Source of the DNA: Polaribacter tangerinus | GTDB taxonomy: Bacteria > Bacteroidota > Bacteroidia > Flavobacteriales > Flavobacteriaceae | Direction of reading: 5' to 3' | NCBI RefSeq assembly: GCF_038024095.1 | Contig: NZ_CP150668.1 | Span: 1,612,001 to 1,676,000, forward strand | DNA length: 64,000 nt | In this document: positions 14,069 through 18,651 of the stretch, piece by piece | Layout of the letters: the number at the start of each line of letters is the position of its first letter | How positions within the stretch are numbered: the first letter of the stretch is position 1 | Notes under the pieces: model-generated | Told to the model about the DNA's origin: nothing | The model's input: only the letters and a program-made list of their open reading frames with translations | Database searches by the model: none | Program-made: the position numbers and the translations under genes

Positions 14069-14184
14069 AAAAAAAAATATAAAAAAGTAAAAGTAGTGAT
14101 TTTAAAATTACCAAATATAGAAGTACAAATTTTAGTAAAATTATTTTTAACAATAGTATTTTATGTTATCTAATTTTTACATAT

Positions 14185-14192
14185 TATCTTTG
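14185..14192 (+). promoter_or_regulatory. -7 promoter element of the broken CxxxCH gene
   Basis: TATCTTTG matches TAnnTTTG and lies 17 bp before the TTG at 14209. It implies a very short leader and supports the TTG as the ancestral start position. Confidence 0.5.
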
Positions 14193-14208
14193 TATTTTAA
14201 ATTTAATT

Positions 14209-14592
14209 TTGAGAAAAGTTTTAACCTTATTAGTTTTAATATCTTTTTCTTTAAGACCATTGTTTTCTATTGGTTATCTGGCCTATTTTCAATTAAATAT
14301 AGATTACATTATAGAAACATATTGCGTTAATTAAAAAGCTCCAGAGCTAGCGTGTAACGGAAAATGTCATCTAAAAAAAGTACTTACATCTACAGAAAAT
14401 TCAGAGGATACTTTTGAGGGAGTGTTCTTTGTTTCAGAAGCTTTTTTTCCAGTTTTTCATCAATCTGATTTTACTTTATCTTTGAGTCTATGTTGTATTT
14501 TAAATACTTCTAAAAACAATTGGAAATTAAATTCATTACATCCAATTCTTACCATTTCTCGTATAGAACAACCACCAGATTTTATTGTCTAA
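14209..14592 (+). pseudogene. small membrane/periplasmic CxxxCH (copper-associated) protein, interrupted by an in-frame stop
   Basis: Reading from TTG 14209 gives a hydrophobic N-terminal segment (RKVLTLLVLISFSLRP), then NIDYIIETYCVN, an in-frame TAA at 14332-14334, then KAPELACNGKCHLKK and about 85 further open codons to TAA 14590-14592. I recognise the joined sequence as a small flavobacterial protein with the conserved pattern YCVNK...L-x-CNGKCHL. A single AAA-to-TAA change would explain the stop. The CNGKCH motif (CxxxCH) suggests metal binding and fits the MbnP/MbnH/SCO neighbourhood. The frame is otherwise undamaged, so the break is recent, is a sequencing error, or is tolerated by read-through. 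The normal ATG also appears as TTG. Confidence 0.7.
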
Positions 14593-14889
14593 ATTATACA
14601 AATAATCTGTTGCAAATAATTACTTATAAGTATTTATTATGGGTGTTCATTGTCTTTTATGAAGCTAAATTTAGCTGAAAAAGTTACACTTGTACTTTGT
14701 CTTATACTTTTTTGCATTAAAATAATTTATTAAAACAAGGCGTTAATTTTTTTTATAAAAATTTCTAAAGATATACTTCTTTGGGTTTCTTATTTAAAAA
14801 GATTATCGTTTAAAGTTTCAATTATTTATAAAAATTGATTGTAAATCAGTTGTTATAAATAACGATTTAAAAAAATTAAAAATTAAAAA
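14593..14889. other. gene-poor stretch upstream of the MbnP-like gene, with a perfect palindrome
   Basis: About 300 bp without a convincing gene. It contains a perfect 14-bp palindrome, AGCTAAATTTAGCT, at 14663-14676. A 24-codon frame (14659-14733) with a hydrophobic end overlaps the palindrome but has no other support. No exact TAnnTTTG element was found; TACTTTG at 14692-14698 is a weak candidate. Confidence 0.5.
14663..14676. promoter_or_regulatory. perfect 14-bp palindrome, candidate operator of the copper island
   Basis: AGCTAAATTTAGCT reads identically on both strands and sits about 215 bp upstream of the MbnP-like start. A dimeric regulator site is possible. No regulator gene is adjacent. 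Confidence 0.35.
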
Positions 14890-15666
14890 TTGAAAATCAA
14901 TATATACATATCTTTATTAATGGTATTTGTTAGTTTTTCCTGTACTAACACAGAAGATGATATTCTTTATGGAAAGGGAAATTTATCGCTTGAATTTGAT
15001 AATTCTTACGGCGATTCTGACTTAATTTTAAATACCACTTCATACCTCGCAAACGAAACTGAAAAAATAAAAATTTCTAAAGTAACCTATATAATCAGTA
15101 ATATAAGGTTAGAAAAAGCAGATGGAACTATTTTCACCTACCCAAAAAATGATTCATATTTTATAGTAGATGAATTTGTGAATAGTTCTCAGTTTATTTC
15201 TCTTTCTAATATTCCTGAAGGAGATTACACAAAGATTACTTTTGGAATTGGTGTAGATCAGGAAAAATATTTAGAAGGAGCAACGGGTCAGGGTAATTTT
15301 TTAACCCTTGCTCAAGATGCAGAAATGATGTGGAGTTGGCAGGCAGGGTACAAGTTTTTAGTTTTTGAAGGAGAATATACTTCTATAAATTCTCCCACTC
15401 CAAGTGCTTTTGCATTTCATATGGGAAGTCATGGAAAAGTATTGGACAATTATAGAGAGGTAACATTGTCGTTACCAAATTCTGCAAGAATTAGAACAGA
15501 TAAAATACCAGAAATCCATGTAGTTTCTAATGTGTTTTACATATTGTCTGGAAGCACCAAATTTTTGTTAGATGAAGGGTCACAAATTCATGTAGATGCA
15601 TTAAAATCTCCAAAAATTGCCAATAATACAAGCGAAATGTTTTACATAGATCACGTACATAATTAG
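14890..15666 (+). CDS. MbnP-like copper-binding lipoprotein
   Basis: A 258-aa lipoprotein. The N-terminus KINIYISLLMVFVSFSC carries a lipobox with Cys near residue 18. The body has the MbnP-family pattern: a first strand LSLEFDN, the segment KISKVTYIISNIRL, GIGVDQ, the aromatic motif MMWSWQAGYKFL and a late HMGSHGK. MbnP is the periplasmic copper-binding partner of the di-haem enzyme MbnH, which oxidises a Trp of MbnP to kynurenine in characterised examples; Trp residues are present in the WSWQAGY motif. The start is a TTG, needed for a full signal peptide. It is 11 bp upstream of the MbnH-like gene, so they are almost certainly co-transcribed. Copper binding is inferred from the family. Confidence 0.8.
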   Translation: MKINIYISLLMVFVSFSCTNTEDDILYGKGNLSLEFDNSYGDSDLILNTTSYLANETEKIKISKVTYIISNIRLEKADGTIFTYPKNDSYFIVDEFVNSSQFISLSNIPEGDYTKITFGIGVDQEKYLEGATGQGNFLTLAQDAEMMWSWQAGYKFLVFEGEYTSINSPTPSAFAFHMGSHGKVLDNYREVTLSLPNSARIRTDKIPEIHVVSNVFYILSGSTKFLLDEGSQIHVDALKSPKIANNTSEMFYIDHVHN

Positions 15667-15677
15667 TATTAATCGTC

Positions 15678-16733
15678 ATGAAAATAATGCAAAAAATAAC
15701 TGTTTTCATTTTTATTCTCTTTTTTGGTTGTGAAAATCATGAGGAAGAATATGTAAAAATCACTACTAAAGTTGCGTTAAACCAGCCCTCAAATTTTCCT
15801 AAATTACGCTATAACCTTATTCAAAACCCTTTAACTGAAGAAGGAATAGCTTTAGGAAAAAAACTTTTTTATGAGGGCCGATTGTCTAAAAATTCTGTTG
15901 TTTCATGTGGTTTTTGCCACGAACAAGCTTCGGCATTTACTCATCATGGTCATACTATTAGCCATGGTGTTAATAATTTATTAGGTTTTAGAAATGCACA
16001 ACCAATTCAGAACTTGGCATATTTTGAGGAGTTTAATTGGGATGGTTCTGCAATACATTTAGATTTGCAACCTATTATACCTATTACAAGTGAGTTTGAA
16101 ATGGGTGAAACAATACCATCTGTTTTAGATAAATTAAGTTTAGATACCGATTACAAGCAATTATTTGAGGATGCTTTTGGTGATGATGAAATTAATTCTG
16201 AAAGAATGTTAAAAGCACTTTCTCAATTTATGGTAACCATGATTTCTTCTAATTCTAAATACGATAAAATAGTAAGAAATGAAGGTAATATTTATTTTAC
16301 AGATGAAGAAAAGGAGGGTTTTAAATTATTTAAAAACAAATGTGCGTCATGCCACTCGGGAGAATTATTTACAGATAAATCATATAGAAATAATGGTTTG
16401 CCTTTTAATTCTAAGTTTCCTGATGAAGAAGGACGAGCACGTGTTACAGGTTTCTTAGATGATTTTTATAAGTTTAGAGTACCAAGTTTACGAAATGTTG
16501 CTGTAACTTTTCCGTACATGCATGATGGTAGGTTTAAAACTTTAAACGCTGTATTAAATTTTTATTCAGAAGGAATGTTAGATAATGGTGGTAAAATTGA
16601 TACACTTTTATTAAAAAGAGATGGAAGTTTCGGAATTAACTTAACTCCTTCAGAAAAAAAATACCTCATCAAATTTCTTAATACATTAACAGATAATACT
16701 TTTTTAAATGATAAACGTTTTTCAGAATTTTAA
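15678..16733 (+). CDS. di-haem cytochrome c peroxidase family protein, MbnH-like
   Basis: A 351-aa lipoprotein-type di-haem protein of the cytochrome c peroxidase/MauG superfamily. It has a lipobox (LFFGC, Cys about residue 18) and two haem-binding motifs, CGFCH at residues 77-81 and CASCH at 222-226. The typical segments GKKLFYEGRLS, FNWDGS, PSLRNVAVTFPYMHDGRF and LNTLTD are present. Its position directly after an MbnP-like gene supports an MbnH role, namely oxidative modification of the partner, rather than simple peroxide removal. Both proteins look lipid-anchored and so could meet at the same membrane. A bacterial cytochrome c peroxidase role is the alternative. Confidence 0.85.
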   Translation: MKIMQKITVFIFILFFGCENHEEEYVKITTKVALNQPSNFPKLRYNLIQNPLTEEGIALGKKLFYEGRLSKNSVVSCGFCHEQASAFTHHGHTISHGVNNLLGFRNAQPIQNLAYFEEFNWDGSAIHLDLQPIIPITSEFEMGETIPSVLDKLSLDTDYKQLFEDAFGDDEINSERMLKALSQFMVTMISSNSKYDKIVRNEGNIYFTDEEKEGFKLFKNKCASCHSGELFTDKSYRNNGLPFNSKFPDEEGRARVTGFLDDFYKFRVPSLRNVAVTFPYMHDGRFKTLNAVLNFYSEGMLDNGGKIDTLLLKRDGSFGINLTPSEKKYLIKFLNTLTDNTFLNDKRFSEF

Positions 16734-17715
16734 ACAATCAATTCTAATATTTTTATTTTTTTTGACCATTTCATTTGATGGGTTTTCAAAAAAATTAATA
16801 GATTATAAATCAGATAATATACTAAATAATATCGAGTATTATTTTTGCGATATATGTGGTTCTTCAGCAAACGGAGCAAGTTTTGGTATAGGAACAATTA
16901 GCAGTGCAAGTTTTATAGGAGTCAGATATATGTATCAATCTTACACTTCTAAAGATGGTATTTTTGTAAATTCGCCATCAACAAAAGAGCATTTTAGTGC
17001 TTATCAACTTTGGGGTAAAATACCAGTTAACAGTTCAATTTATATAAGTGCAGTAATGCCTTATCAAGATTTAGAAAGGAGATTTTCTAATAAAACGGAG
17101 GCAGTTAGTGGTTTTGGAGATGCTATAATTATGGGTTGGTATCAATTAAAATTATTTAAGCAATCTTCAGAGAACAACACTAATTTAATACCTGTGAAAG
17201 AAACATCAAATCACTCATTAGAATTTGGTTTTGGGGTGAAATTGCCTACAGGTAAATTTGAACAAGTACTAGCAAATCGTGTAAACCCAGGTTTTCAGGT
17301 AGGTACAGGAAGTTTAGATGTTGTTCTTGCACTTTCACATGGCTTTAATAAAAATAATTTTGGGCTTAGCACCTCTTTAACTTATTATCTAAAAGGTGAA
17401 AATAAGAATGAATACCGTTTTGGAAATCAGTTTAGCTACCGTACAAATTTATTTTATACAATAGCAAAAGATAATTTTAGTTTCTTACCATTTATAGGTT
17501 TTTCTGGAGATGTTTATAATCCTATTTCTCAATATAAAGAAACTATAAAAAATACAAGCGGTGATGTATTTAACGGAATATTAGGAGCAGAAACTATCTT
17601 TAATAAAGCAATTGTTGGTGTTAATTACACGTTGCCAATTCATCACAATTTATTTAACGGAAATGTTACTCCAAATAGTTCTTTAAGTGTTTATTTAAAT
17701 TTTTCTCTAGAATAG
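16708..17715 (+). CDS. outer-membrane beta-barrel protein of the MbnP/MbnH locus
   Basis: A 335-aa exported protein (signal peptide to about residue 28, FDGFSKK) that overlaps the 3' end of the MbnH-like gene by 26 bp, which implies translational coupling. After the signal it has a short CDICGSSANG segment, a CxxC motif, then repeated amphipathic strands (GVRYMYQSY, HFSAYQLWGKIPV, YISAVMPYQDL, GFGVKLPTGKF) ending in an aromatic-rich barrel closure (LSVYLNFSLE). This resembles transporter-type barrel proteins seen beside MbnP/MbnH and SCO genes in Bacteroidota. Possible roles are passage or sensing of copper or another metal; none is proven. Confidence 0.7.
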   Translation: MINVFQNFKQSILIFLFFLTISFDGFSKKLIDYKSDNILNNIEYYFCDICGSSANGASFGIGTISSASFIGVRYMYQSYTSKDGIFVNSPSTKEHFSAYQLWGKIPVNSSIYISAVMPYQDLERRFSNKTEAVSGFGDAIIMGWYQLKLFKQSSENNTNLIPVKETSNHSLEFGFGVKLPTGKFEQVLANRVNPGFQVGTGSLDVVLALSHGFNKNNFGLSTSLTYYLKGENKNEYRFGNQFSYRTNLFYTIAKDNFSFLPFIGFSGDVYNPISQYKETIKNTSGDVFNGILGAETIFNKAIVGVNYTLPIHHNLFNGNVTPNSSLSVYLNFSLE

Positions 17716-17727
17716 TTTTCTATGTGT

Positions 17728-17767
17728 AAAACAACTGAATATTTTTAAAAAAGTATTCAGTTGTTTT
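17728..17767. terminator. bidirectional terminator between the copper operon and the SCO1-like gene
   Basis: A perfect 14-bp inverted repeat (17728-17741 with 17754-17767, AAAACAACTGAATA and its complement). It overlaps the stop codon of the SCO1-like gene. Confidence 0.85.
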
Positions 17768-18446
17768 ATTCTCTAACGTATTCTTCCTTTAAAAGCAAAA
17801 TATCTGTTTTTAACCTTTCCATTTCTTCTTTATCTGTGCCGTCATAAGAACCTCTTATGCGTCTTTCTTTATCTATTAAAACAAAATTTTCTGTATGAAT
17901 AAAGTCGTTCTCTCCACCGTCGCCATCATCTAGAACAGCAAAATAACTTTTTCTTGCTAGTTCGTAAATATGTTTTTTAGGACCTGTTACTACATGCCAT
18001 TTACCATCAATAACCCCTTTCTTTTTTGCATATTCTTTTAATACAGAAACGCTATCTATAACTGGTGTAACCGAATGAGATAAAAACATAATATCAGTAT
18101 CGTTTTTGTAAAAATTTTGTAGCTCGCTCATATTATATGCCATTGCAATGCATATAGTTTGACACCTTGTAAAAAAGAAATCTGCTATGTAAATTTTGTC
18201 TTTAAAATTATTGTTAGTAACTATTTCTCCGTTCTGATTTACTAACTCAAAATCTGCAATTGTATGATTTTTAGTAATGTGTTTAATTGAAAAGTCCACC
18301 AATTGCGGATTAAAGTCTATAGGGTTATAAATTTTTAATGTTTTATCAACTTTTAATAGATGATAAAAAACTGGAATCGAAACTGCAGAAAAAGCAATTA
18401 AAAAAAGTAAAGTAGGAATTGATTTTTTAAAAAATTTAATTTCCAT
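17766..18446 (-). CDS. SCO1/SenC family copper chaperone
   Basis: A 226-aa membrane-anchored thioredoxin-fold protein. One N-terminal transmembrane helix (about residues 10-31) is followed by a SCO domain with the copper-binding CxxxC motif (C95 and C99 in TRCQTIC) and the third ligand His184 in DFIHTENF. SCO proteins insert copper into the CuA site of cytochrome c oxidase or handle copper in the periplasm. It is convergent with the MbnP-MbnH-barrel operon and shares its terminator, so the neighbourhood is plainly about copper. All copper ligands are intact. Confidence 0.9.
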   Translation of the reverse strand: MEIKFFKKSIPTLLFLIAFSAVSIPVFYHLLKVDKTLKIYNPIDFNPQLVDFSIKHITKNHTIADFELVNQNGEIVTNNNFKDKIYIADFFFTRCQTICIAMAYNMSELQNFYKNDTDIMFLSHSVTPVIDSVSVLKEYAKKKGVIDGKWHVVTGPKKHIYELARKSYFAVLDDGDGGENDFIHTENFVLIDKERRIRGSYDGTDKEEMERLKTDILLLKEEYVRE

Positions 18447-18627
18447 AAATATCTAGTTATAAAGCAAAAATACGACTTAATATTTCTTTAAAAAAGAACT
18501 AAAATCTAATAAAATCATAAAAATGTGGGTATTTTTTTCTTAATAAAAATGAATTTCTAAGTGTTTTACTTTTTTTTATAAAGTAATATTTAAAGTTAAT
18601 GATGTTGAAAGATTAATGGTTTTTGAT

Positions 18628-18635
18628 TAATTTCG
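18628..18635 (+). promoter_or_regulatory. promoter of the dGTPase gene
   Basis: TAATTTCG is one base off TAnnTTTG, with a TTG at 18605-18607 spaced 20 bp upstream, and lies 17 bp before the start codon. Confidence 0.4.
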
Positions 18636-18651
18636 ACGATATTTTACAATT

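Follow-up and report, generated by a model that had tools for sequence, protein, structure and literature searches.

Organization of the Locus

This study concerns a short leader gene and the copper-type operon behind it in Polaribacter tangerinus, whose genome is a single contig of 2.69 Mb and 99.99% complete; a stretch of 64,000 nucleotides (nt) from this genome, hereafter the window, was analysed. In the window, a small open reading frame (ORF) interrupted by a stop codon is followed by mbnP, mbnH and the gene of an outer-membrane barrel protein, and then by a convergent SCO1 gene (Table 1). The small ORF belongs to a family found across Bacteroidota, which is marked by three cysteines and a Pro-Pro beside the stop codon and is a candidate for a translational arrest leader that responds to copper. 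To our knowledge, little is understood of how Bacteroidota import copper; a short conserved leader marking many candidate copper operons of the phylum makes uptake genes easy to locate, and with it the sensing of a metal by a nascent chain could be tested directly.

Table 1. Features of the leader-headed locus and its convergent neighbour, in window positions.
Feature	Position	Strand	Basis or remark
Bacteroidota-type -7 promoter element TATCTTTG	14185..14192	+	upstream of leader; consensus match only
Leader ORF, CutF/CruR-like, interrupted	14209..14592	+	tblastn match to the intact copy at L004, 55% identity
Leader-mbnP intergenic region, 297 nt	14593..14889	+	compared with relatives
MbnP-family lipoprotein; WSW residues 148-150, Met146, His177	14890..15666	+	Pfam, alignment, predicted fold
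MbnH-like di-haem enzyme, CCP/MauG family, two CxxCH	15678..16733	+	Pfam, NCBIfam, solved relative
Outer-membrane barrel, ~12 strands, CDxC before first strand	16708..17715	+	homologues, structure model
SCO1/SenC, convergent neighbour, genus core gene, outside the conserved unit	17766..18446	-	Pfam, 4hde alignment, linkage

The -7 element is assigned by its match to the Bacteroidota motif, and neither intrinsic terminators nor sigma-70 promoters were found above chance in 14069-18651.

MbnP, MbnH and the Barrel Protein

The mbnP product matches the Pfam MbnP family PF20243 with 156.6 bits against a cut-off of 27, and stays below the cut-off of the NCBIfam equivalog TIGR04052 (41.9 versus 140 bits). 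Among 14 sequences, which were chosen to include members with the WxW motif, Trp148, Trp150 and His177 are invariant and Met146 is nearly so. A search of solved structures with the single sequence found nothing, while in a profile search the WxW, Met and His were aligned with those of 7l6g, and the predicted fold matched 7l6g far above all other listed structures, so that the identity of the protein as MbnP can be called secure as judged from sequence and model. The Met, the His and the WxW motif are presumably the copper ligands, with the site of Trp-to-kynurenine conversion among them, and since WxW is conserved, kynurenine at Trp148 is possible in the window protein. A second group of PF20243 matches occurs in the genus (loci L020, L021, L025, L026, L028-L030), where GGGYHF or GGGYHY stands in place of WxW and which should therefore not form a kynurenine site in the same way; an MbnH homologue adjoins the MbnP-like gene in six of these seven loci.

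The next gene encodes a di-haem protein of the CCP/MauG type (PF03150, 168 bits). Its best NCBIfam model is TIGR04039, MbnH (226.4 bits, below the model's cut-off of 362.85), and among solved structures the closest in sequence is 6e1c (E 1e-39), from Methylosinus trichosporium OB3b. As read from the sequence, the N termini of MbnP and MbnH are of the lipoprotein type. The window pair thus resembles that of strain OB3b (7l6g; 6e1c) in its WxW motif, in the Met and His positions, in the predicted fold and in the adjacent di-haem enzyme; it differs in falling below both NCBIfam cut-offs, in the addition of a barrel and a leader, and in the lack of an MbnB-family match (PF05114) anywhere in the genome at E 0.001, the other methanobactin genes not having been searched. 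With this scope, the proposal of a first-pass annotation that the window holds a methanobactin-independent, copper-linked operon of MbnP and MbnH lipoproteins and an overlapping barrel with a CxxC segment is supported.

The barrel gene overlaps the end of mbnH by 26 nt, and its product carries the CxxC segment as CDIC. At E 1 the window protein matches nothing in Pfam or NCBIfam, no Pfam match was found among 45 compared family members at E 0.01, and 264 homologues were retrieved at E 0.001. CDxC is invariant in the 45 members, and a third cysteine is nearly so, with a serine in the window; of 100 near-invariant columns the window protein breaks six, a number shared by two other members and exceeded in the distant L039. 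The structure model (predicted local distance difference test, pLDDT, of 78) has 13 strand segments, two of which resemble one broken strand, and it matches the COG4313 channel 4rl8 and FapF, to which sequence identity is 12-14% and with CDxC lying in a low-confidence part of the model; a profile search against solved structures gave no match. In the genus, 20 barrel matches were found in 19 of 78 genomes, and all 20 lie downstream of a same-strand leader, 16 at 2.0-2.5 kb, where MbnP and MbnH fit between, and four weak matches at 0.55-0.67 kb, a neighbourhood co-occurrence that is not at chance level. Linkage, and not a name, is here what ties the CDxC barrel and the MbnP/MbnH pair to copper.

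A Conserved Leader Ending in Pro-Pro

In an alignment of 65 members of the leader family, three cysteines and the terminal Pro-Pro are kept in all. The collected loci contain 108 distinct leader ORFs (the window copy was excluded, its pieces being too short for the ORF caller), and in each of these Pro-Pro lies within 15 residues of the C-terminal end, with the ORF ending at most 14 residues past it, in 53 cases exactly two residues past it. CxGxC is present in 106, and 63-71 residues separate CxGKC from the terminal Pro-Pro. At the C terminus, Pro-Pro beside the stop codon is the most conserved feature, preceded by a divergent stretch. Because the model of the family itself contains Pro-Pro, an independent check used loci matched through the N-terminal part alone: an ORF was found in 18 of 20 (two had no ORF match), and Pro-Pro lies in the last 17 residues in 17 of the 18 and slightly further in in the eighteenth, against a background of 13/912 in comparable DNA. 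A hydrophobic N terminus, judged from hydropathy only, is seen in 97/106 leaders versus 99/227 controls. The database forms of two leaders, P0121 and P0124, are 107 residues long and start late, so that the signal-like N terminus is missing; a true start at TTG is the probable reason.

A leader was detected in 42 of the 78 genomes of the genus sample, in 98 of 149 genomes (nearly one per genus) of the family to which the window belongs, and across the phylum in 63 of 198 genomes and 39 of 102 genera. Beyond scattered weak matches, no Pfam or NCBIfam family corresponds to it, and none of the 65 aligned members matched DUF2946 (PF11162) at E 1 or better.

Genes and Intergenic Region Behind the Leader

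A same-strand gene follows within 1,000 nt in 107 of the 108 leaders, the largest gap being 577 nt. In 80 regions taken from genomes with a leader match, three of them without a called leader ORF, the genes next to the leader encode receptors, PepSY_TM proteins, YtkA-like proteins, MbnP-MbnH pairs and barrels; most receptor and accessory labels were given by ORF length, and for ten proteins a family search was made as a check. The window MbnP led to nine named loci (seven from Polaribacter, one from Tamlana, one from Cloacibacterium) in which the arrangement of the window recurs, all with leader, MbnP, MbnH and barrel in the same order. From a first MbnP search of 59 relatives 30 loci were kept, of which 10 show both the leader and the barrel close to MbnP, and in 20 both are missing (tblastn, 1.5 kb flanks); the profile later called one more, distant leader at L002. 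In three loci (L083, L086, L116), tandem leaders with an ORF of 144-145 residues between them stand ahead of MbnP-MbnH-barrel, and the 145-residue ORF of L086, the one that was checked, showed no clear family in a family search.

Between leader and mbnP, the window has 297 nt, versus 140-232 nt in nine compared relatives. No clear conserved sequence motif was found in this gap among the relatives compared, and hairpins in it are unlike in sequence between relatives. An excess of hairpins was seen ahead of the gene that follows the leader.

Interruption of the Leader in the Window Strain

The window holds no complete leader ORF. Its copy starts with TTG, encodes a hydrophobic N terminus and YCVN, and is then interrupted by an in-frame TAA at codon 42 (14332-14334), after which CNGKCHL is still readable and the frame ends in EQPPDFIV-stop. 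The first-pass annotation had taken this ORF for a broken CxxxCH protein and an undescribed part of a copper island; the ORF and its stop are there, and it most probably serves as a translated leader that senses copper, not as a structural part. No second leader was found in the genome at E values up to 1.

Stop-bearing matches are rare: the window copy is the one case among 48 leader matches in the genus, and the search of the family flagged it and G067:C18 among 125. The latter was not counted as a second broken leader, since its stop precedes the usable start and an intact ORF of 116 residues remains. Whether selection on the operon relaxed once the stop had arisen was also considered; trees and pairwise ratios of nonsynonymous to synonymous substitution (dN/dS) were not conclusive, as dS approaches saturation and a neighbouring gene evolves faster as well.

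Relation to Known Copper-Responsive Leaders

Pairs of MbnP and MbnH outside methanobactin producers have been on record since 2013 (PMC3621798), and a survey lists CutF-like leaders of Bacteroidota, assigning 40% of CutF-like proteins (normalised; 19% raw) to this phylum (PMC9973294). The leader family may be included in the lists of that survey, while MbnPH-barrel operons are not mentioned in the available part of its text (PMC9973294), and the window copy is, in addition, interrupted. CutF of Rhodobacter is a small exported ORF, as the leader may be, and shares with it CxxxC, a PP at most 15 residues from the end, the place before copper genes and a hairpin before the next gene; in CutF, copper prolongs its pause, and the hairpin opens. 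In CruR, the stall is instead relieved by copper, upon which Rho termination follows. CruR nonsense mutants silence the operon (PMC9426467), and downstream expression is lost with a stop at codon 50.

CruR of Bordetella, a DUF2946 protein, heads operons, known mostly from Proteobacteria, of a TonB copper receptor with PepSY_TM, MbnPH-like proteins and Sco (PMC9426467), and is in this respect like the leader; unlike it, the leader never ends in RAPP and, as noted above, does not match PF11162. As these partners are shared although no model used connects the two leaders, both appear, by gene content, to serve the same gene sets. The DUF2946 model itself matches in 5/198 genomes of the phylum (two above the cut-off), in proteins separate from the leader. 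Rare His-rich DUF2946-like proteins at L155-L159, ending in SRAPP in four of five and RGPP in one, form a second Pro-Pro-ended family. Arrest peptides with RAPP or RGPP share with the leader a conserved Pro-Pro near the C-terminal end of an upstream ORF, which is exported in their case and putatively so in the leader (PMC12992588; PMC10987492), but the leader mostly has HPP, QPP, KPP, PPP or RPP, and one survey reports no RAPP/RGPP upstream ORFs of copper-related genes in Bacteroidota (PMC12992588). Outside the supplements of the CutF survey, a search of the literature on MbnP/MbnH, CruR/CutF and Bacteroidota arrest peptides yielded no description of the leader's phylum-wide pattern, the MbnPH-barrel unit or the CDxC barrel.

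Proposed Mechanism and Alternatives

We propose that leader, mbnP, mbnH and barrel form a copper-responsive envelope operon. In relatives with an intact copy, the leader would be translated first, its N terminus entering the Sec channel. As CxGKC sits 63-71 residues before the terminal Pro-Pro, these cysteines should already be outside when Pro-Pro arrives at the active centre of the ribosome, and they would lie beyond both the tunnel and the membrane if the two are spanned by ~47 residues, as estimated by the CutF authors (PMC9973294). Copper on the leader cysteines would alter the duration of a ribosome stall at X-Pro-Pro and thereby decide downstream expression. By analogy with CutF and CruR, the leader should thus couple copper to expression; the hairpin excess leans weakly to a CutF-like step and the uptake-type targets favour a repression by copper as in CruR, and no choice between them is made here. 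MbnH would oxidise Trp148 to kynurenine, MbnP would then bind Cu(I) near Trp148, Met146 and His177, and the barrel, as a COG4313-like channel, could hand on copper or a copper complex at its CDxC end. In the window strain, translation of the leader would stop at codon 42, and the operon is predicted to be weak or silent because the stop precedes CxGKC and Pro-Pro.

This explanation as a whole, with an arrest leader cut short in the window strain, is considered probable. More tentative, and short of an even chance, is the further proposal that Bacteroidota have an arrest-leader family of their own, with no model link to DUF2946 and with X-Pro-Pro and, 63-71 residues ahead of it, a sensor of cysteines, which would control copper uptake genes including an MbnP-MbnH-channel unit without methanobactin or a TonB receptor of its own, the window strain being a natural nonsense mutant with the unit off.

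Several points weigh against the arrest leader. The residue preceding PP is H, Q, K, P or R, rarely E or Y, with APP or RAPP in 0/108; the proline motif of CutF alone causes no strong stall (PMC9973294), and the spacing of 63-71 residues differs from the 45 in CruR and CutF. Start codons of the leader are uncertain, the hairpin effect is modest, and the tallies of operons represent neither a random sample nor independent lineages, since the regions were picked via a leader match. In the window lineage, the operon genes lack clear decay, with pairwise dN/dS below 0.3 where computable at near-saturated dS, and their branches are 2-3 times as long as the sister's, those of a neighbouring gene being likewise 1.6-2.5 times longer, a pattern that fits a recent stop, a tolerated stop or a sequence error.

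The intact downstream genes with their low dN/dS would also suit a different role for the small protein, that of a copper chaperone, secreted or in the membrane, which acts in trans and has been lost from the window strain while the operon still works, and the signal-like N terminus and the cysteines are suitable for it. However, a chaperone does not sit well with a C terminus conserved above all at Pro-Pro beside the stop and divergent just before it, nor with a gene that heads varied copper-type gene sets, and no family match supports it; we regard this role as unlikely. A sequence or assembly error in an otherwise normally regulated operon, which is compatible with the arrest leader, would account for the rarity of the stop among the genus matches and for the conserved remaining frame, with no second strain found for comparison, but the single-contig genome and its completeness argue against it, and such an error seems decidedly improbable.

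The SCO1 Neighbour

The convergent gene encodes an SCO1/SenC protein (PF02630, 86.5 bits) whose CxxxC and distal His align with those of 4hde, in keeping with the intact ligands seen in the first-pass annotation. That it forms one copper-delivery island for cytochrome oxidase with MbnP, MbnH and the barrel, as also suggested there, is very unlikely: it is intact, adjacent and convergent in the window, but some SCO1 match is present in 78/78 genus genomes (a close one, E <1e-90, in 74), neither MbnP nor the barrel occurs in any of 29 SCO1 loci taken with flanks of 1.5 kb, and among the matches listed the operon lies ~0.1-1.07 Mb away in 10 of the 15 genus genomes, the window's aside, whose barrel match is strong, and on separate contigs in five. 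SCO1 is likewise absent from the flanks of all nine named operon loci (two of them shortened), from two genus loci extended to 10 kb and from the 80 family regions. The window SCO1 was accordingly rejected as a conserved operon partner.

Two loci from another family of the order, L243 (G052) and L244 (G039), carry on one strand a leader, a 91-residue ORF, an SCO1-family gene (34-36% identical over 140 residues), a 224-residue ORF, a second leader, MbnP, MbnH and barrel, and at L229 a more distant, weaker SCO1-like match lies behind a leader. The linkage in G052 and G039 counts as evidence for a functional tie and slightly raised the probability of the delivery island. Copper units headed by a leader can thus include proteins of the SCO1 type, although the window SCO1 is the genus core copy. 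An SCO1 paralogue lies ~50 kb from the operon in G433, among the matches listed, and several SCO1-family matches of the genus (G017, G418, G429, G023 and others) were flagged with one in-frame stop.
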